Below, piece by piece: positions 11,001 to 20,189 of a stretch of DNA of 64,000 bases. The stretch lies in assembly GCA_016788425.1 (NCBI GenBank), contig JAEURQ010000004.1, positions 124,001 through 188,000 of the forward strand, given 5' to 3'. Below the pieces are notes generated by a model that searched no databases, was not told the origin of the DNA, and worked only from the letters and a program-made list of their open reading frames with translations. This stretch comes from Chthonomonas sp. (GTDB lineage: Bacteria > Armatimonadota > Fimbriimonadia > Fimbriimonadales > Fimbriimonadaceae). How positions within the stretch are numbered: the stretch's first letter is position 1; each line of letters begins with the position of its first letter. The position numbers were made by a program, and so were the translations under genes.

Positions 11001-11840
11001 GTGGTGATCGTGGTGAATGCCGAAACCAGCTACTGGGCTCAGTGGGGCCTCGCGGAGGATCCTTTTGCACAAGGGTACGACCGCCGTTTTGTGCGCCTGA
11101 CCAACTCGCTGGAGAACGCGCTCACGCTCCTCTACTTCACCGTCCAGCGCAATCGCGGCGCGGCTTGCGTCACCGGCGAAACGGGATCGGGCAAGTCCAC
11201 GCTCTTGCATCACCTCAAACAAGTTCTCGTCGAAGAAGGCGCGCAAGTTCTGGCGTTTTCGTTGCGCGGCCTGACCCCGGTCCAGTTGCTGAGAACGATT
11301 CTGCAAGGACTTGGCTGCCCGGCTATCGCCGACGACGTGCAATTGCTGCGGCAAGCCGTGCACCTCGAGCTTTTTGAGCGCGCAGAGCGCGGCCCGCGTA
11401 CGATTTTGATGCTCGACGACGTGGACGCCGTCGAAGACCCGGCGATTCTGGGGCTGCTCGACGAGCTGACCAAGGCTCGCGTGGGCAGCAAGTACCTGAT
11501 CAATTGCATCCTGGCGGGCGGCTCTACGCTGGTGCGCAACCTCTCGATTCACCCCGAGTTTTTCACGCGCCTCGCCTTCCAAGTCCAACTCGCGCCGCTG
11601 ACCGCGGCCGAGGCGAGCGACCTCATTCGCGACCGCTTCGCGGCGGCCGGGTGGAAAGGCGAATCGTTCCCGATCTCGGTTGAGGCGGTCGAGTTGCTTC
11701 ACCAAAAGGCCGCGGGAAATCCGGGCCGCATCTGCCAATGGCTGCACCAAGCCATGGCCAACGAACTCTGCGCCCGTGCGGGCGTGGTTGACCCCTTTTA
11801 CCTCTATCAAGTTTTTAGTCACGGAGAAACAGCCGCATGA
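11001..11840 (+). CDS. ExeA/GspA-type AAA ATPase
   Basis: 279 residues. The family couples ATP hydrolysis to secretin assembly or to DNA/peptidoglycan processes. The N-terminus has the ExeA-like GLAEDPF pattern. Walker A is GETGSGKST (about residues 58-66), Walker B is ILMLDDVD (about 134-141), and a sensor region follows (LAGGS). There is no peptidoglycan-binding or membrane segment, so only the ATPase half of ExeA is present. Several GTG codons (11001, 11004, 11010, 11013) could start it; 11013 has the best upstream purines. The stop overlaps the ATG of the HTH gene. It heads the pilMNOPQ operon. Confidence 0.85.
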   Translation: MVIVVNAETSYWAQWGLAEDPFAQGYDRRFVRLTNSLENALTLLYFTVQRNRGAACVTGETGSGKSTLLHHLKQVLVEEGAQVLAFSLRGLTPVQLLRTILQGLGCPAIADDVQLLRQAVHLELFERAERGPRTILMLDDVDAVEDPAILGLLDELTKARVGSKYLINCILAGGSTLVRNLSIHPEFFTRLAFQVQLAPLTAAEASDLIRDRFAAAGWKGESFPISVEAVELLHQKAAGNPGRICQWLHQAMANELCARAGVVDPFYLYQVFSHGETAA

Positions 11841-12502
11841 ACCTATTCCAACGAATCTTTCACCACCTCGATGAGCTTCACGATTACAGCCCCACGCCGG
11901 CGCGGAAGTTCAGCCCCAAATTTGATGCCACCCCGACGACGAATCCGGTGGCGATTGAACCTGAAGCAACCCCTATGGAGACTGTAATGACCTCGATTAA
12001 CGCCGACGTGAGCGAGACGATCACCACCACCGACCGAACGGACCGCCTGATTCAGGATGCTATCCGCGCGGCGGGCGTCTACGACACAACAAAACCGACC
12101 CAACCGATAAATAGTGCAATCGTTGAGGCTACTTCTCCGTCTTTAGGAACGGAGACCATGGATTCGGTCAGTACAACACAGGATGTCGAGACCTCGGCAG
12201 CGGGCACGAATGCGCTTCAAATGGGGCGGATTTTGCTGGAACTTGACCTCTCGCCCGAGCAATCCATGCAGCTCTTTTCGGCCACCCTCGCGACCAAGCA
12301 GTCGATCATGACGCTGGAAGAAGTCGCCGAGATGCTTCGTCTTGAAACGTTTGAAGTCGCCCAACTCACCCGCCAAGGGCAGTTGCCCGGGTTTGTGGCG
12401 GGCGCGAATCTCCGCTACCGCCGCACGGATGTAGAGGCCTTTGTCGCCTCGCAACTGCACGCCATGCGCACCGAAACCACCCCTCAAAATCATGTCGCGT
12501 AA
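11837..12502 (+). CDS. Protein with C-terminal excisionase/MerR-like HTH domain
   Basis: 221 residues. Residues 1-130 are low-complexity and rich in Thr, Ser and acidic residues, probably disordered. Residues about 155-205 form a winged HTH of the HTH_17/excisionase type: LTLEEVAEMLRL, then VAQLTRQGQLPGF, then LRYRRTDVEAFV. The ATG overlaps the stop of the ATPase gene, and the 3' end overlaps pilM by 11 bases. This tight placement suggests a regulatory or scaffolding job linked to the pilus operon. The specific role is unknown. Confidence 0.8.
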   Translation: MNLFQRIFHHLDELHDYSPTPARKFSPKFDATPTTNPVAIEPEATPMETVMTSINADVSETITTTDRTDRLIQDAIRAAGVYDTTKPTQPINSAIVEATSPSLGTETMDSVSTTQDVETSAAGTNALQMGRILLELDLSPEQSMQLFSATLATKQSIMTLEEVAEMLRLETFEVAQLTRQGQLPGFVAGANLRYRRTDVEAFVASQLHAMRTETTPQNHVA

Positions 12503-13568
12503 ACAAGGTTCAACTCTCGGAATTGATATCGGGCACTCGGCCATTAAGGTGGCCATGGTCGAACCGACGAGCCTCGGTTGGAAGGTCTCCTCGGCGTACA
12601 CCGTTGACACGCCCATGGGCGCCGTCGTCGATGGCGTGGTGGTGGACGTCCCGCTGGTGGGCGGCATTCTCCGCGCCCTGCTTAAGGACAACAACCTCGC
12701 TGGTCGGCTGGTGAACCTCTCGGTGGCTTCGGCCACGGTGGTGGTGCGAACCGTGGCGATGCCGAAGATGACCGCCGAACTCCTGCAGAAATCCATTCGC
12801 TTTGAAGCCGGGCGCTACATCCCGAACTCGATTGAAGACAGCTACGTGGAGTTCGAGATCCTCGGCGATCTCGACGAGACGCAGATGGAAGTCATGCTCG
12901 TCGCGGCCCCCCGCGACCTCGTGAATTCACGTATCGCGGCGTGCGAAGCGGCCGGCCTTGAGGTCGAAGCCGTGGACCTTGAGCCGTTCGCCGTCTACCG
13001 CGCGCTCATCGAGTCGGACAGCCTTTACAATTGGGAAGAAAAGACGTTCGCCCTGGTGGACCTCGGTGCCCGCACGACCAACGTGAGCGTGGTCAGCAAG
13101 GGCCGGTTCATGCTCACTCGCACGATTCCGCAAGGTAGCAACGCACTTTCCGATGCGCTCGCGAACTTCTTTAAGCTCTCGCGCGAAGATGCCGAATCGG
13201 GCAAGGCTCAGCTGGATATCTCGCCGCTGGCAGGAGACGCCGTTGTGGAAGCTGCGCCGCTTCGCGTGCTGCAGCCGCACCTCGAAGAAACTCTGCGCGA
13301 ACTTCGCCGCAGCCTGAACTTCTTCACCACCCAGGCCACCGAGGCCGGTACCCCGGAAGCGGTGACGCACATGGTGTTGACTGGTGGCGGCGCCGAACTG
13401 GGCGGCCTCACCGAGTACCTCAGCGCCAAGCTGGGGCTGAAAGCCTTGAAGATTGGAGTGATGGACAACCCCCGATTCACGTCGGGAGTGAGCCACGACC
13501 TTGGGTCGGGTAGCAACTTCACCGTTGCATCCGGGTTGGCGATGAAGTCCAACGAGCCCGCCGCTTAA
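12492..13568 (+). CDS. pilM: Type IV pilus assembly protein PilM
   Basis: 358 residues, actin-like ATPase fold. PilM is cytoplasmic and binds the N-terminal tail of PilN, linking the inner-membrane PilN/PilO platform to the motor. The phosphate-binding loop GIDIGHSAIK is at about residues 10-19, the second ATPase motif LVDLGARTTNVSVV at about 178-191, and the adenosine loop LTGGGAELGG near 297-306. The start at 12492 overlaps the preceding gene by 11 bases. pilN follows after four bases. Confidence 0.93.
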   Translation: MSRKQGSTLGIDIGHSAIKVAMVEPTSLGWKVSSAYTVDTPMGAVVDGVVVDVPLVGGILRALLKDNNLAGRLVNLSVASATVVVRTVAMPKMTAELLQKSIRFEAGRYIPNSIEDSYVEFEILGDLDETQMEVMLVAAPRDLVNSRIAACEAAGLEVEAVDLEPFAVYRALIESDSLYNWEEKTFALVDLGARTTNVSVVSKGRFMLTRTIPQGSNALSDALANFFKLSREDAESGKAQLDISPLAGDAVVEAAPLRVLQPHLEETLRELRRSLNFFTTQATEAGTPEAVTHMVLTGGGAELGGLTEYLSAKLGLKALKIGVMDNPRFTSGVSHDLGSGSNFTVASGLAMKSNEPAA

Positions 13569-13572
13569 CCTT

Positions 13573-14166
13573 ATGCCAAACATTAACCTCATTCGCGAAC
13601 AACGCATTCTGGTCCGGGCCCAGCGTCGCAAGACGAAGCTGGTGTCGGCGGGCGCCCTCGGCATTTCCGTGCTGGCGCTTGGCTTCCTCGGCATGCAATG
13701 GATGAATCTCTCCGGCAAGCGCGCCGCTCTGGTGGATGCAAAACAAAAGCACGAGCGCATTTATCCGAAGGTCGAGCAAATTGACGAACTCACCGCTCTG
13801 GTGGGCAAGCTCGAACCCAAGATGCAGAATCTCGACGATTCGCAGCGAGCCACGAAGCGCTGGTTTAGAATCCTGAACCACCTCGCCAAGAACACGCCGC
13901 CCGACGCCTGGTTGACGCAGATTCGCTCGACGCAGACCATGGCGACCGAGCCGGTCGCGTTGACGATTCAAGGCATCAGCGGGGGGCAAGGTTCGGCCGC
14001 GGACATGATGAACCGTCTGCAAGCGAGCACCGATTACGAAGGCGTGGTGCTGAACTACACCAACGAAGAAGTTTCGACCGACCGAACGGGCATTAAGTTT
14101 GAGCTCACCGCGCGGGTCGCGGGAACAGCTCAACCGAAGCCGAAGGAAGAGGAGGAAAAGGCATGA
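13573..14166 (+). CDS. pilN: Type IV pilus assembly protein PilN
   Basis: 197 residues. The N-terminus MPNINLIREQR is the conserved PilN motif that docks to PilM. One transmembrane helix follows at about 27-45, then a coiled coil (50-95) and a small periplasmic ferredoxin-like domain ending in an acidic and lysine-rich tail. The stop overlaps the pilO start by four bases (ATGA). Confidence 0.9.
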   Translation: MPNINLIREQRILVRAQRRKTKLVSAGALGISVLALGFLGMQWMNLSGKRAALVDAKQKHERIYPKVEQIDELTALVGKLEPKMQNLDDSQRATKRWFRILNHLAKNTPPDAWLTQIRSTQTMATEPVALTIQGISGGQGSAADMMNRLQASTDYEGVVLNYTNEEVSTDRTGIKFELTARVAGTAQPKPKEEEEKA

Positions 14167-14861
14167 AGAACACGTCCAACCCCACAATGATCGCGGTCTT
14201 GGCAGGCGTGGTGGTCCTCGGCTCCATCGCCGGTGCCATCAGCTTTATGGGCGACGCGGGCAAGAACGATCGCGAAGCCAAGGCTTTGCTCTCGCAGATT
14301 CGCGAAGAAGCGACGGTGGATCGCGAACTCGCGGCCATCAACGAGCGGCTGCAACTTTGTAACAAGCGCCTGGAGCACATTGTTGACGAGCGACCGGAAG
14401 TCGCGGTCTCGGGTTTGATGACCCGCCTCGAGCAAACCGGTATCGCCAACGGCCTCATCGTCACGGGCGTGCGCCCCAAGGACGACGCCAACAAGCCGGC
14501 GCCGAACCAGGGCAAGGAAGGCGACAAGCCGGTTCGCAAGGATTACGACGATCAGCTGATCGAGGTGAAGGGTTCGGGCGAGTACATTTCCGCGCGTCGC
14601 TTCATCGAGGCGCTGGAGAACTTTCCCAACATCGTGCGGATCGAGAGCCTCGATATCTCGCCTCGCCAAAACGGCACCCGCGACAACAGCCGCGGTTCGC
14701 TGGACATGACGATTACTCTGCGCGCTTACCTCTACCCCGAGGTAGAGCAGCCGAAGGCCGGCACCGAAGAGCCGGGCGGCGGAAAGAAGCCGACCACGTC
14801 GGTTGAACCCTCGACTCAGGCGCGCGGCGAAAAGACTTCCCGAGGAGAAAAGAATGGCTAA
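14163..14861 (+). CDS. pilO: Type IV pilus assembly protein PilO
   Basis: 232 residues. It has one N-terminal transmembrane helix (about 9-29), a coiled coil (about 35-75), and a periplasmic PilO domain (GSGEYISARRFIEALENFPNIVRI). PilO forms a heterodimer with PilN in the inner-membrane alignment complex. The C-terminal 40 residues are Pro/Gly/Lys-rich. The pilP-like start overlaps the 3' end. Confidence 0.88.
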   Translation: MKNTSNPTMIAVLAGVVVLGSIAGAISFMGDAGKNDREAKALLSQIREEATVDRELAAINERLQLCNKRLEHIVDERPEVAVSGLMTRLEQTGIANGLIVTGVRPKDDANKPAPNQGKEGDKPVRKDYDDQLIEVKGSGEYISARRFIEALENFPNIVRIESLDISPRQNGTRDNSRGSLDMTITLRAYLYPEVEQPKAGTEEPGGGKKPTTSVEPSTQARGEKTSRGEKNG

Positions 14862-15531
14862 GAGCGAAAAAGAAAAGAAACAGCTCATCGTGATGGGCGC
14901 GTTGATGACGGTGATGGTCGGCGTGGGGGCGTTCTCGTTCCTCGGCGGCAGTAAGCCGACGGCACCCGCCAAGGCGGTGGCCAAGGAAACCTCTCAGCCG
15001 GTCGAGAATCGGGACTATGCCGACGAAAGCGGCGTGAAGGAAGGCATTCGCAAGTATGCCGGCCCCGAGTTTCCGGAGCGCGATCCGTTTAACATCCCCG
15101 GTGGTTTGGGCGCAATCGCGGCTAACACGGCGGCGGCTGGTCCGGCGCCCAAGCCCATTGGCGGCGGCCCTGGCCCGCGAGCCACAAGTGGCGGTGCGGT
15201 GCCCAACACCAGCGGTTTGCAACCCATGCGACCGGACTTGACGCCGATGGGTGGCGAATTGGATCCGACCGCGACCACGGTGGGCAACACCCAGCCGACG
15301 GCGCCAACCAAGGAAACCGAGTTCAAGCCGACTCCCGAAGACCCCGGTCTTTCGGTGGTGGGGGTTGTGAAAGGTGACGTTCCGACCGCGATCCTGCAGG
15401 ACCACGGTGGAAAACAATTTTTAGTAAAACTCGGATCGGAAGCTTTTGATGCGCGGCTTATTGCCGTCGCCAGTCGTCATGTTGTGATTGAGTATGGCGG
15501 CAAACAGCACATCCTTCACTTGGCCCGGTAG
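14854..15531 (+). CDS. pilP: PilP-like pilus assembly protein
   Basis: 225 residues from ATG at 14854 with ribosome site GAGGAG upstream. Lys-rich N-terminus, one transmembrane helix (about 9-28), then a Pro/Gly-rich linker to about 165. The C-terminal domain contains LSVVGVVKGDVPTAILQDHGGKQFLVKLG, similar to PilP/GspC homology regions that contact the secretin. Unlike E. coli-type PilP it seems anchored by a helix rather than a lipid, since no lipobox Cys is visible. The position between pilO and pilQ supports the call. Confidence 0.75.
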   Translation: MAKSEKEKKQLIVMGALMTVMVGVGAFSFLGGSKPTAPAKAVAKETSQPVENRDYADESGVKEGIRKYAGPEFPERDPFNIPGGLGAIAANTAAAGPAPKPIGGGPGPRATSGGAVPNTSGLQPMRPDLTPMGGELDPTATTVGNTQPTAPTKETEFKPTPEDPGLSVVGVVKGDVPTAILQDHGGKQFLVKLGSEAFDARLIAVASRHVVIEYGGKQHILHLAR

Positions 15532-18271
15532 AGCGCAATCACTGCGATCTCGCTGGTTCCTGGGCGCGACTCTGGTTTTCGGAGTCGCGCCTTTTGCGCT
15601 TGCGCAAGCGAAGATCTCGGGCGTGACCACGGGCGTGACCCAGGGGGCCCTTGTGGTCACTGTGGCGGGCACCGATCTCAAGTCGCCGAAGGAACTTCGC
15701 GTCATGCGGGACACGGTGTACATTGCCGAGTTTGAGGCAGCCCTCGCGGGCGGCGTTAAGCCCGGTAAGGTTTCGGTCCGCAAGCAGGGCGTGGAGTACG
15801 TGCAGTACGGTTGGTACACCGCCCGTCCGCCAAAGGTCCGCGTCAGCATTCGCCTGACCGACCCGGCGCTCACGCCGCTGATTACCAAAACCGCGGACGG
15901 TTTCGTGATCACGATTCCGAAGCAAGCCAACGCTGGTTCGGACACCAATCCGTTGCTGCCGAATCCGGCGGAAACGCCGGTCAAGACGGCGAACCAAGAT
16001 TCGACTCCGTTGCTGACGGCGACGAGTGCGCAAGGCGCGCCGGACTTCATGAGTCTGCGCCGCAACGACACGCCGGTCACCGAGCCGACGCCGACCCCGT
16101 TGCCGCAACCGACGCCGAAGCCGCAAGTCCAGACCAAGCCGCAAGCGACGCCTCCGAAGCAAAACGGCTTTGAAAAGGATGTCCGCAGTAACGCGGTCGA
16201 AAAGAAGCGCACCATTTCGCTTGATTTCGTCGCCACGGACGTCAACCTCGTGCTGAAGGCGCTGGCTCTGCAATCGGGCGCGAACATCGTGACTGCCCCG
16301 AACATGAAGGGCACGGTGACGGTGAGCATCGCGAACGTCCCGCTGGATTCGGCCCTTGACTTCGTCACCGTACCGAGCGGTCTGCGATGGGAACGTGTCC
16401 GCGGAACGACTTACGTGGTCGCGCCGAAGGAAAAGATCCGTGAGATCGTCAACGAACTGAGCCGCCGCGACCAGGCCGTGAGCACCACGCTTATCGTGCC
16501 GATCTACAGCGGTGACATTCGCCAGATTCGCGAGACCGTGACCCGCGCGTTCATTCCGAGCACGAGCGAAGGCTCGTTCGAAATGCTGCTGTCCAGCGAA
16601 ATTTCCTCGGAAAAGAAGGAATCGTCCACCTCGGAAAGCGGCGGCGGTTCGACCGGAGCCGAAGCTGATGGCGGCGGTGGCGGAGCTAAGGTCGATCCCG
16701 GCCAAGGTGGCGGCGGCGGTGGATCGTCGTCCAAGTCCGAGAAGAGCACGGCCTCGCTGGCTCCGCTGGACAACCTTTACATGATTCTCATCGGCAACGA
16801 CGAGATGGTGAGCCGAGTCCGTGATTACATTACGCAGCTCGACCGCCAAATCTGCGCCAGCTACGGCATCGAGCCGAGCGTCAGCAGCGCGTTGGTGACC
16901 GACACCTACACCATCCGCTCGAAGACCCTCAAGGCCAAGGCGATGATCGATAACGTGAGCTTCCAAGGGTTTGGCCCTGCCTTCCCGAAGGTTGCGCTGC
17001 ACGCCTCGCCGGAAACCGGCGAGCGCCAGTCGGTGATCATCGTCGGACGCGAATCGGAAGTGGCTCGCGCCAAGCAACTCCTCGCCGAGTTTGATGGCGT
17101 CGGTGACAACATCGCGGTGTACGATCTGAAATTCTCCGACCCGCGCAGTGTCCGCGATCAGGTGATGTCGTTCGTCCCGGGTCTGCAAGTGGACTTCGCT
17201 CCCGCCGGAGCCGGTGCCCCGCGCCTTTACGAAGGCATTCGCGCCGGTAACAAGGCGACCAGCGAAATGAAGGGCGATGGCGGCGGCGGCGACGCGCAAG
17301 ACGTCTCGGCCAAGGGCGAAAGCAAGGACTTTGACAGCGCGCTGAGCCAGCCGTTTAACGAGCTGGAAAAGACCGCTCAACCAATGCGCTTGATTCTGCG
17401 CGGTTCACCCGAGCAGATCACCCGCGCGGCTGCGTTCATCGAGCGCATTGACCTGGAGCCCAAGCAAGTGGCCATTGATGTCCGCGTGGTGGAACTCTCG
17501 CGCAGCGAAGCTCTCAAAATCGGCATCGACTGGAGCATGCTGACCGGCGGTATCGCCCGCTCGATCCGCATCAACCAGAACCCCGGTCGCACTCAAGATG
17601 ACATCGGCACGCTCGAAGGCGAAACCCGCGTCAACTACAACCTGAACGGTCAAACCGGCAGCTTGTTCTCATCGCTGGATCAGCTGGACGCTTCGGGCCG
17701 CGTGATTAGCCGCCCGAACCTGCTGGCCATGGATGGCCGCGAAAGCGAAACCTTCATCGGCGAGACGATCCGCTACGTGGAATCCATTCAGTCCACGCAG
17801 AACGGCGTGACCGTCACGACTGCGTCCATCGGCGTGGGTATCCGACTCGCGGTGATTCCGCGCATCGGTGCCGATGGTAAGATCACGCTCGACATGCGAC
17901 CGGTCATCCGCTCGCTGAAGGGCTTTACCTCGGTCCCCGGCGGCGGCCAACTTCCGCAAACCGTGGAGCGCGTGATGACCAACACCGTCATGGTCAACTC
18001 GGGCGAAACCATCGCTCTAGGTGGCCTGATCACCGACACGGAATCCAAGACCATGGGCGGCATCCCGCTGCTCAAGGACATTCCGCTCCTGGGTCGTCTG
18101 TTCAGCCGCGAAACCAAGAATCGCGATCGCCGCGAACTGGTGTTCTTCATCACCGTGCGTGAGGTGAACACCGAAAATCGAGGCCGCGTGGCCGCTCCCC
18201 GGGATGCTGAGAAAAATAATGGCCTGGTTGAGGAACAAACCAAGCCCGAGAAAGTCAAAAAGAAGGGTTGA
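15494..18271 (+). CDS. pilQ: Type IV pilus secretin PilQ
   Basis: 925 residues. A signal peptide with an extended N-region ends ALAQ near residue 38. Domains in order: AMIN (about 45-135), a Pro/Thr-rich linker, the STN/N0 domain (about 236-315, ISLDFVATDVNLVLKALA), three secretin N repeats interrupted by Gly/Ser-rich loops (about 375-425 and 590-610), and the C-terminal secretin domain from about 650. The secretin signature lies near 800-880 (VPGGG, VNSGETIALGGLI, PLLKDIPLLGRLF). It forms the outer membrane pore for the pilus. The start overlaps the pilP 3' end, and the operon ends at a strong terminator. Confidence 0.95.
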   Translation: MAANSTSFTWPGRAQSLRSRWFLGATLVFGVAPFALAQAKISGVTTGVTQGALVVTVAGTDLKSPKELRVMRDTVYIAEFEAALAGGVKPGKVSVRKQGVEYVQYGWYTARPPKVRVSIRLTDPALTPLITKTADGFVITIPKQANAGSDTNPLLPNPAETPVKTANQDSTPLLTATSAQGAPDFMSLRRNDTPVTEPTPTPLPQPTPKPQVQTKPQATPPKQNGFEKDVRSNAVEKKRTISLDFVATDVNLVLKALALQSGANIVTAPNMKGTVTVSIANVPLDSALDFVTVPSGLRWERVRGTTYVVAPKEKIREIVNELSRRDQAVSTTLIVPIYSGDIRQIRETVTRAFIPSTSEGSFEMLLSSEISSEKKESSTSESGGGSTGAEADGGGGGAKVDPGQGGGGGGSSSKSEKSTASLAPLDNLYMILIGNDEMVSRVRDYITQLDRQICASYGIEPSVSSALVTDTYTIRSKTLKAKAMIDNVSFQGFGPAFPKVALHASPETGERQSVIIVGRESEVARAKQLLAEFDGVGDNIAVYDLKFSDPRSVRDQVMSFVPGLQVDFAPAGAGAPRLYEGIRAGNKATSEMKGDGGGGDAQDVSAKGESKDFDSALSQPFNELEKTAQPMRLILRGSPEQITRAAAFIERIDLEPKQVAIDVRVVELSRSEALKIGIDWSMLTGGIARSIRINQNPGRTQDDIGTLEGETRVNYNLNGQTGSLFSSLDQLDASGRVISRPNLLAMDGRESETFIGETIRYVESIQSTQNGVTVTTASIGVGIRLAVIPRIGADGKITLDMRPVIRSLKGFTSVPGGGQLPQTVERVMTNTVMVNSGETIALGGLITDTESKTMGGIPLLKDIPLLGRLFSRETKNRDRRELVFFITVREVNTENRGRVAAPRDAEKNNGLVEEQTKPEKVKKKG

Positions 18272-18290
18272 CACAACCCCTGCAGATCTG

Positions 18291-18325
18291 CCCTCCCGAC
18301 CAATCGGGAGGGCCCTTTTCTTTTT
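18291..18325 (+). terminator. Terminator of the pilus operon
   Basis: CCCTCCCGA, a CCAA loop, then TCGGGAGGG followed by CCCTTTTCTTTTT, 19 bases after the pilQ stop. Confidence 0.9.
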
Positions 18326-19568: not shown

Positions 19569-19600
19569 AACTACCTGCCGCAGGATCGGCGCTTGCCTGT

Positions 19601-19606
19601 TACTAT
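19601..19606 (+). promoter_or_regulatory. -10 element of leaderless PEP-CTERM transcript
   Basis: TACTAT, seven bases (TTATGGG) before the ATG at 19614. A purine-rich GGG in the spacer is too close to act as a ribosome site. Confidence 0.45.
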
Positions 19607-19613
19607 TTATGGG

Positions 19614-20189
19614 ATGAAGTGCTTTTTGTCCCTTGCATTAGTGGCGAGTGTGGGCCTTGCTTCGGCCACCAGCCTCACCCTGAAAATGGTCGCCGACGAC
19701 TTTTTTGAGGCGTACATTTCGACGTCGGACGCTGTACAGGGCACCCAGTTTGCCGCGCAAGTCAACACTTGGCAAGCCGGTACGGTCACCGGAACCGTCG
19801 CGCTGACGCCTGGCATGACCAACTACCTGCACATCCGTGCGCGCGACGTCTTTGGCGCGCCGTCGATGATCGTGGGCGAAGCGTCGCTCAGCGACGCGGG
19901 CTTTGCTTTCGGCAACCTGACGCAGAACCTGCTGACCAACACAACTGATTGGCAAGTAAGCCTCAGCGGATTCGGTAGCGGCTATGTTACGCCGACCCTG
20001 ATCGGCTTTAATGGCGGCGGTCCGTGGGGCACGCAAAGCGGCATTTCGCTGAACGCGGCACGAATTTGGTCGAACCAAACTGCCGGCGAGCACTACTTCA
20101 CGACGGCGATTCGCGTTGTTCCGGAACCGGCTTCGCTGCTGGCCTTCGCGCTGGGCGGTCTGCTGGTCCTTCGCCGCAAGAGCAAGTAA
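19614..20189 (+). CDS. PEP-CTERM sorting domain protein
   Basis: 191 residues. The signal peptide (MKCFLSLALVASVGLASA) starts at 19614. The C-terminus is VPEPAS, then LLAFALGGLLVL, then RRKSK. The body is a compact beta-rich domain with SLTLKMVADDFFEAYISTSD near the start, which recalls carbohydrate-binding or cell-surface modules of other PEP-CTERM proteins. It is transcribed alone and ends at a hairpin. An exported surface protein of unknown function. Confidence 0.85.
   Translation: MKCFLSLALVASVGLASATSLTLKMVADDFFEAYISTSDAVQGTQFAAQVNTWQAGTVTGTVALTPGMTNYLHIRARDVFGAPSMIVGEASLSDAGFAFGNLTQNLLTNTTDWQVSLSGFGSGYVTPTLIGFNGGGPWGTQSGISLNAARIWSNQTAGEHYFTTAIRVVPEPASLLAFALGGLLVLRRKSK

Follow-up and report, generated by a model that had tools for sequence, protein, structure and literature searches.

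ATPases of the ExeA type are already known to occur at secretin and pilus loci. One of them, MshM, lies in the MSHA pilus locus beside the secretin gene mshL, according to the accessible part of the report (PMC4624765), and the available portion of a second paper calls it mandatory in its MSH model (PMC6668835). In Pseudomonas aeruginosa the ExeA-like protein PA14_66580 (PA5037) is encoded beside pilMNOP, and the excerpts available of that study describe less twitching, fewer pili and normal PilQ multimers upon its deletion (PMC6321873). In Myxococcus, as related in the accessible sections of two further papers, type IV pili are activated at the pole by MglA (PMC7668184, PMC11580455). Here we describe two genes, encoding an ExeA-like AAA+ ATPase and a helix-turn-helix (HTH) protein, that stand directly ahead of pilMNOPQ in a 64-kb stretch of DNA (the window) from the 2.67-Mb genome assembly of Chthonomonas sp., where the operon occupies positions 11001-18313. 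In the openly accessible literature, judged largely from listings, we found no report of such a pair at a pil operon, and the pair goes unmentioned in the pilus passage of the Fimbriimonas ginsengisoli genome paper, which lists pilus genes, as far as its accessible text extends (PMC4072686).

The pair is a real, conserved accessory module. Our preferred reading, which draws on sequence comparison and to which we give a probability of about 50%, is that it would act as a cytosolic ATPase-adaptor module that controls how many pilus machines there are, where they are placed or how active they are.

Conservation of the pair and its tie to pilM

Among 61 genomes of the family an ATPase orthologue was detected in 52; the HTH gene, detected in 50, is always its immediate neighbor. 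The initial annotation had named absence of the genes from the pilus locus of close relatives as grounds for dropping its proposal; these counts show them to be present. A 53rd ATPase match (G105; 4.5e-4, within an 831-residue frame) proved unrelated and was dropped. At the level of the order, 42 loci were compared (the window, 40 others of the family and one from another family of the order), with the ATPase in 40 and the HTH gene in 38, and neither gene was seen at 39 pilM loci from other families of the phylum. When 84,980 species genomes were scanned with the HTH alignment and the single pattern MN[LF][AV]DAIR, 90 stretches matched and 49 were confirmed; the ATPase lies directly upstream in all 49, and pilM was recognized at each except L193 and L196. 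Because the scan demanded the motif, orthologues without it escaped. The locus L158 (JADZEW010000018.1), which is titled Methanoregulaceae archaeon and has a Fimbriimonadaceae-type pilus locus, is likely a mislabelled bin.

The layout is conserved along with the genes. Counted over distinct loci (the truncated L194 ATPase and identical copies being removed), the 4-base overlap between ATPase and HTH genes is kept in 48 of 66, and the ATG at the 11-base overlap between HTH gene and pilM in 49 of 66, a recurrence that is more than chance. Presence of the pair also follows that of the pilus locus. Close pilM orthologues (E <1e-85) were found in 10 of 20 examined genomes, and all ten genomes lacking an orthologous pilM (G051, G105, G226, G235, G181, G185, G230, G123, G133 and G138, with G230 only 73% complete) also lack both genes. 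Two genomes have kept the pair together at a distance from pilM, 178 kb away in G224 and on another contig in G233.

We sampled 201 genomes across the phylum, 34 of which belong to the order; the single strong ATPase orthologue beyond the order was that of G017, from another family (1.7e-116), where the gene order is ATPase, HTH, a gene for an ACT-domain protein, pilM and pilN. In G180 (L220:1-5721) a weaker ATPase match is followed by a PilZ gene and then pilM-N-O-P-Q; this PilZ gene, of the cyclic di-GMP receptor type, occupies the place of the HTH gene. The initial annotation had suggested a module specific to this lineage. Conservation throughout the order agrees with that, but the complete pair in G017 and the ATPase-PilZ version in G180, both upstream of pilM, mean that it is not strictly lineage-specific.

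The other ExeA-like ATPases of the phylum lie away from pilM, several of them near genes for ribbon-helix-helix (RHH)-like, replication or ParA proteins and some with HTH_17 proteins; the RHH-like assignment is a reading of sequence, and one such protein that was scanned has no Pfam match. At L204:763-5577, L221:1281-2719, L237:4729-6783 and L202:5300-5893 the ATPase adjoins proteins with an N-terminal motif like RRRKLDELFADxPYLSATM, some of which have HTH_17 and some of which adjoin ParA, perhaps as a partition system. At L224, L225, L228-L231, L233 and L238 it lies near a small protein with an RHH-like end, and several of these loci add a replication-type protein (Phage_rep_O in L229), as in a plasmid- or phage-like cassette.

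A different nucleoside triphosphatase (NTPase) precedes pilM elsewhere in the phylum. Eighteen genomes carry a GTPase that we read from its sequence as probably of the MglA kind (Pfam gives weak Arf/Ras matches). In 13 of them pilM follows 0.8-3.7 kb downstream on the same strand; in four of the remaining five it is on another contig and in one it is unlisted. In both loci scanned a DUF4388 gene lies between GTPase and pilM; the pilM loci of other Armatimonadota families (L115, L123, L126, L128 and others) begin with genes for DUF4388 proteins and MglA-like GTPases. At the same threshold the GTPase was found in none of the 34 genomes of the order.

The operon and its two leading proteins

In the window, seven plus-strand genes follow one another in the order ATPase, HTH_17 protein, pilM, pilN, pilO, pilP and pilQ, the last five forming a type IVa pilus set in which PilP is placed by gene order and family profile only. 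By layout and overlaps they are one compact operon, as the initial annotation had it, and are presumably co-transcribed; its two extra genes and both overlaps lie where it had placed them. The features are as follows.

11001..11840, plus strand: ExeA/GspA-like AAA+ ATPase, 279 amino acids, predicted cytosolic; GTG start, uncertain within 11001-11013
11175..11198, plus strand: Walker A, residues 59-66, GETGSGKS
11415..11420, plus strand: Walker B residues 139-140, DD for the order-wide DE
11837..11840, plus strand: ATGA, 4 bases shared by the ATPase stop and the HTH start
11837..12502, plus strand: winged-helix HTH_17 protein with BldC-like fold, 221 amino acids (Pfam, AlphaFold2 model)
11843..11872, plus strand: residues 3-12, predicted helix at the N-terminus, with MN[LF]xDA[IL]R in altered form (model and alignment)
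12056..12067, plus strand: DAIR, residues 74-77, within predicted helix 65-80; possible displaced motif copy
12305..12475, plus strand: folded C-terminal winged helix and long last helix, residues ~157-213 (model)
12492..12502, plus strand: 11 bases shared by the end of the HTH gene and the start of pilM
12492..13568, plus strand: pilM, ATG start (PilM_2 4e-53)
13573..14166, plus strand: pilN, N-terminus MPNINLIREQR (PilN 8e-12)
14163..14861, plus strand: pilO (PilO 6e-10)
~14854..15531, plus strand: pilP-like; no Pfam match, weak GspC-type match, placed by family profile match and gene order
~15488..18271, plus strand: pilQ secretin, start uncertain (Secretin 1e-38)
18290..18313, plus strand: hairpin of terminator type, 10 base pairs and a T-rich tail, 18 bases past the pilQ stop

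The exact start of the ATPase is uncertain because its open reading frame has no ATG start and several in-frame GTGs (11001, 11004, 11010 and 11013). The protein matches AAA_22 (4e-14, Pfam) and keeps Walker A and the Walker B aspartate, the catalytic glutamate being replaced by aspartate. Scans with Pfam and NCBIfam found no peptidoglycan-binding domain in it, which bears out the earlier statement that this part of ExeA is missing, and hydropathy showed no membrane segment in either the ATPase or the HTH protein, PilN and PilO being positive by the same measure. A typical ATPase begins MYExYWGL.EPPF.LTPDPRFLY and has the motifs GDIGLGKT and IDEAHLI; the ATPase model (predicted local distance difference test score, pLDDT, 86.8) has structural likeness to Orc/Cdc6, TnsC and MuB. 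No other protein of the operon is as well conserved as the ATPase, with a core-core mean identity of 71% compared with 55% for PilM, 42% for the HTH protein and 33-38% for PilN, PilO, PilP and PilQ. In a tree of 41 ATPases the pil-linked members, including that of G017, group together (98/99) to the exclusion of GspA-type, XrtA-type and other ATPases; support for a grouping of the order by itself is weaker (74/94). Left out of this tree was the ATPase of G180 (L220), because just 89 of its residues aligned.

The HTH protein matches HTH_17 at residues 158-206 (2.7e-7; 31.2 bits against a cut-off of 27). AlphaFold2 modelled most of residues 161-210 with pLDDT >90, as a domain resembling BldC and Xis (closest solved folds 6ama, 6amk and 4j2n), and gave low confidence to the long N-terminal part. 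The disordered, threonine-rich N-terminus of the initial annotation agrees with this low confidence, but it is peculiar to the window protein, the conserved part being a short helix motif: in 32 of 38 relatives the HTH protein begins MN[LF]xDA[IL]R. At that place the window protein has MNLFQRIFHHLDEL, and it has DAIRAAG at residue 74, both predicted helices with modest confidence; the second may be a displaced copy of the N-terminal motif or chance. It is background to this motif that the PilN N-terminus, MPxINLI..R, binds PilM, and one idea is that MNLADAIR might mimic it.

For the charge of the winged helix, we reduced 87 sequences to 64 distinct domains, whose net charge has a median of -1 (window -2) compared with +4 for nine HTH_17 comparators, of which the same genome supplied six. 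In the segment of the recognition helix the median is -2 (range -3 to +1), with the comparators between -2 and +3. The comparators are fetched HTH_17 proteins caught by patterns (L203 and L217-L219 gave none), one of them (L200, G017) being a distant member of the same pair, and the sequences are related, so that the P values of this comparison overstate independence. Most of the pil-linked HTH_17 proteins have no basic, DNA-contacting recognition helix. Given that this helix has turned acidic, the protein probably binds protein rather than DNA, and the "HTH" resembles an adaptor more closely than it does an ordinary DNA-binding protein.

Both proteins have diverged in the genus of the window. 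The window ATPase shares only 31% of its residues with the core and the same proportion with its congener G202 (genus range to the core about 31-43%), whereas window PilM retains 48% and 59%, respectively. Window HTH identity is 27% against a core mean of 42%, and because PilN, PilO, PilP and PilQ deviate little, lying 4 to 9 points below their core means, the strong acceleration sits in the ATPase, with the HTH protein next. In the tree, the window branch (2.09) and the shared stem (0.77) compare with about 0.1-0.5 for other members. Walker B reads D-E in 66 of 68 distinct ATPases, including those of G017 and G180 and counting L176 as read from its sequence; the exceptions are DD in the window and DN in G202, the same two in which the N-terminal HTH motif is altered. 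Since ATPase and motif changed together in this genus, the window module may have a reduced or changed activity. Simple pseudogenes are unsupported, as reading frames and overlaps are intact, and G+C content by codon position in the two genes is similar to that of the pil genes. The window, whose ATPase has diverged most, is thus the least typical place to study the module.

The hairpin at 18290-18313 is the likely operon end, judged from its sequence and position. Although consensus-type terminators were no more frequent than expected (nine found, against a mean of 9.0 in shuffled sequence), none of the others has as long a stem or as many G-C pairs as this one, which stands at the expected site. 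A weak search found no sigma-70-like promoter in the operon region. In relatives, a small gene for a predicted lipoprotein (~135 amino acids), a pilotin candidate, directly follows pilQ, often with a 1-base overlap (L088:11739-12146, without Pfam match; L207:9532-9930; L216:3819-4220; L205:11666-12067); none was seen immediately past pilQ in the window. At 19593-20189 the window encodes a small protein with a C-terminal PEP-CTERM motif barely above cut-off (20.8 against 20.7 bits). Elsewhere in this genome, on other contigs, lie another PilM-like gene accompanied by a PilN-like one (L215:8504-10945) and a pseudopilin/secretin-type cluster (L214:3905-12406), which gives the genome at least two type IV filament systems.

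Weighing the possible roles

According to the reading that we prefer, the ATPase would be an ExeA/GspA-type AAA+ protein pared down to its AAA part, and its translationally coupled partner would join the N-terminal helix motif to a BldC-type winged helix through a variable linker. The motif might dock on the ATPase or on PilM while the winged helix binds another component, and nucleotide-driven switching, acting on the cytoplasmic face of PilM/PilN, could set the number of pilus machines, the sites at which they are built or the times of their activity. The lower twitching with unaltered PilQ multimers upon PA14_66580 deletion is a precedent for this reading (PMC6321873). We favor a protein complex over an ordinary regulator because the two genes are tightly coupled and are missing together where the pilus locus is missing, and because the helix is acidic. 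By analogy with the position of MglA-like genes upstream of pilM, the pair may serve placement or activation. It is a more tentative proposal, and an unlikely one as a whole, that throughout the order a winged helix turned protein adaptor couples an ExeA ATPase to the PilM ring, taking the slot of the MglA-type polarity GTPases found at pilM in other families, as a new control of number or placement for type IVa pili.

Several observations weigh against a controlling complex of this kind. Four genomes (G012, G148, G173 and G194) retain pilMNOPQ without the pair and two (G214 and G227) retain the ATPase without the HTH gene, so that the pair is not essential. The number of T2SSE ATPases (PF00437), considered as a pointer to what disappears along with the pair, does not set the four apart: each has 10, like most pair-keeping genomes. 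In a mirror-tree comparison the correlation between ATPase and HTH protein is 0.44 with genus g1 and a weak 0.33 (partial rank correlation) without it, the latter no higher than with PilM and PilN. The wing of the HTH domain stays basic and may bind DNA. Finally, in the accessible text on Vibrio cholerae, an mshM deletion leaves surface pili at wild-type level (PMC4624765). Judged from the absences, losses and unlinked pairs together, the pair behaves as a unit that depends on the pilus locus yet is dispensable.

These same data bear on the alternatives. If the HTH protein were a transcriptional regulator or autoregulator of the pil operon, with the ATPase as a nucleotide-dependent switch upon it, the BldC-type winged helix as closest solved fold, the conserved basic residues of the wing, the position of the pair as first genes of the operon and the RHH-like or HTH_17 neighbors that certain ExeA-like ATPases have in the phylum's other families would all be accounted for. 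We consider this doubtful, given a recognition helix that is acidic in most orthologues and a negative domain charge, unlike most HTH_17 proteins of the same genome; the missing promoter counts weakly in the same direction. The assembly or control module of the initial annotation survives as an accessory module tied to pilMNOPQ that may act in assembly or in expression, with ordinary DNA binding disfavored by the acidic helix. Less probable again is a secretin assembly factor like ExeA/GspA that helps PilQ cross or anchor in the cell wall, with the HTH protein replacing GspB. The best match in a plasmid collection is indeed a GspA-type ATPase followed by gspB (38.5% identity), and the order of ATPase then partner agrees, but neither protein has a transmembrane or peptidoglycan-binding part, and PilQ multimers were normal in the PA14_66580 deletion in the excerpts available (PMC6321873). 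A direct ExeA-like role at the cell wall is disfavored because both proteins are soluble.

A further possibility concerns only the genus of the window and is compatible with a cytosolic ATPase-adaptor module elsewhere in the order: here the module may be decaying or repurposed, its position kept and ATPase activity lost or changed. We rate this as a serious contender that nonetheless falls short of even odds. It is suggested by the long branch and stem, by the altered Walker B set against DE in the 66 other distinct ATPases, and by the changed N-terminal motif in window and G202 while PilM is not accelerated; against it stand the intact reading frames, the retained overlaps and Walker A, and the normal codon-position G+C content. 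That the two genes are chance neighbors or a passing mobile element is very improbable. Related ATPases of the phylum do adjoin replication or ParA genes, but position and overlaps are conserved throughout the order, which rules out chance neighbors, and the pil ATPases are a separate clade.

The role of the ExeA-like ATPases that recur at secretin and pilus loci is not agreed, and deletions of mshM and PA14_66580, as far as the available excerpts describe them, disagree. A clade in which the ATPase is best conserved, is stripped of membrane and wall parts and has one soluble partner isolates a cytosolic function, and its natural variants (both genes lost, HTH gene lost, pair unlinked, Walker B changed) are ready comparisons.

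Comparison with known systems

The pair shares with GspA/ExeA and GspB/ExeB of type II secretion an AAA_22 ATPase gene followed by a partner gene and a tie to a secretin system. The ATPase part of the Ideonella GspA-type protein, which is the best plasmid-collection match and is followed by gspB, is 38.5% identical to a typical orthologue. However, its coding sequence is 548 amino acids compared with 270-279 for the pil-linked ATPases, which are without membrane or peptidoglycan-binding part and whose partner is a soluble winged-helix protein, not of the GspB type. Among NCBIfam models the best full-length match is the XrtA/PEP-CTERM-associated ATPase (TIGR03015), but with 205.6 bits for a typical orthologue and 66.9 for the window ATPase the cut-off of 324.5 is not reached, and the pil-linked ATPases lie outside an exosortase locus.

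MshM is likewise an ExeA-like ATPase encoded within a type IV pilus locus, set apart, by description, by the MSHA gene order, the neighboring MshN (a tetratricopeptide repeat protein) and, in the accessible text, no mention of an HTH partner; against the MSHA gene set the window locus is pilMNOPQ with PilM_2, with no msh-specific best match. PA14_66580/PA5037 agrees in being an ExeA-like ATPase encoded beside pilMNOP and differs in that the available excerpts mention no HTH partner. It presumably also differs in carrying a SPOR domain. With the BldC/excisionase-type HTH_17 proteins the partner shares its fold, differing in its acidic recognition helix, N-terminal motif and linker. The MglA-type GTPase and DUF4388 genes of other Armatimonadota families likewise place an NTPase gene and a partner upstream of pilM; this GTPase is an unrelated Ras-like protein, and the likeness to the ATPase-HTH pair is one of position only.

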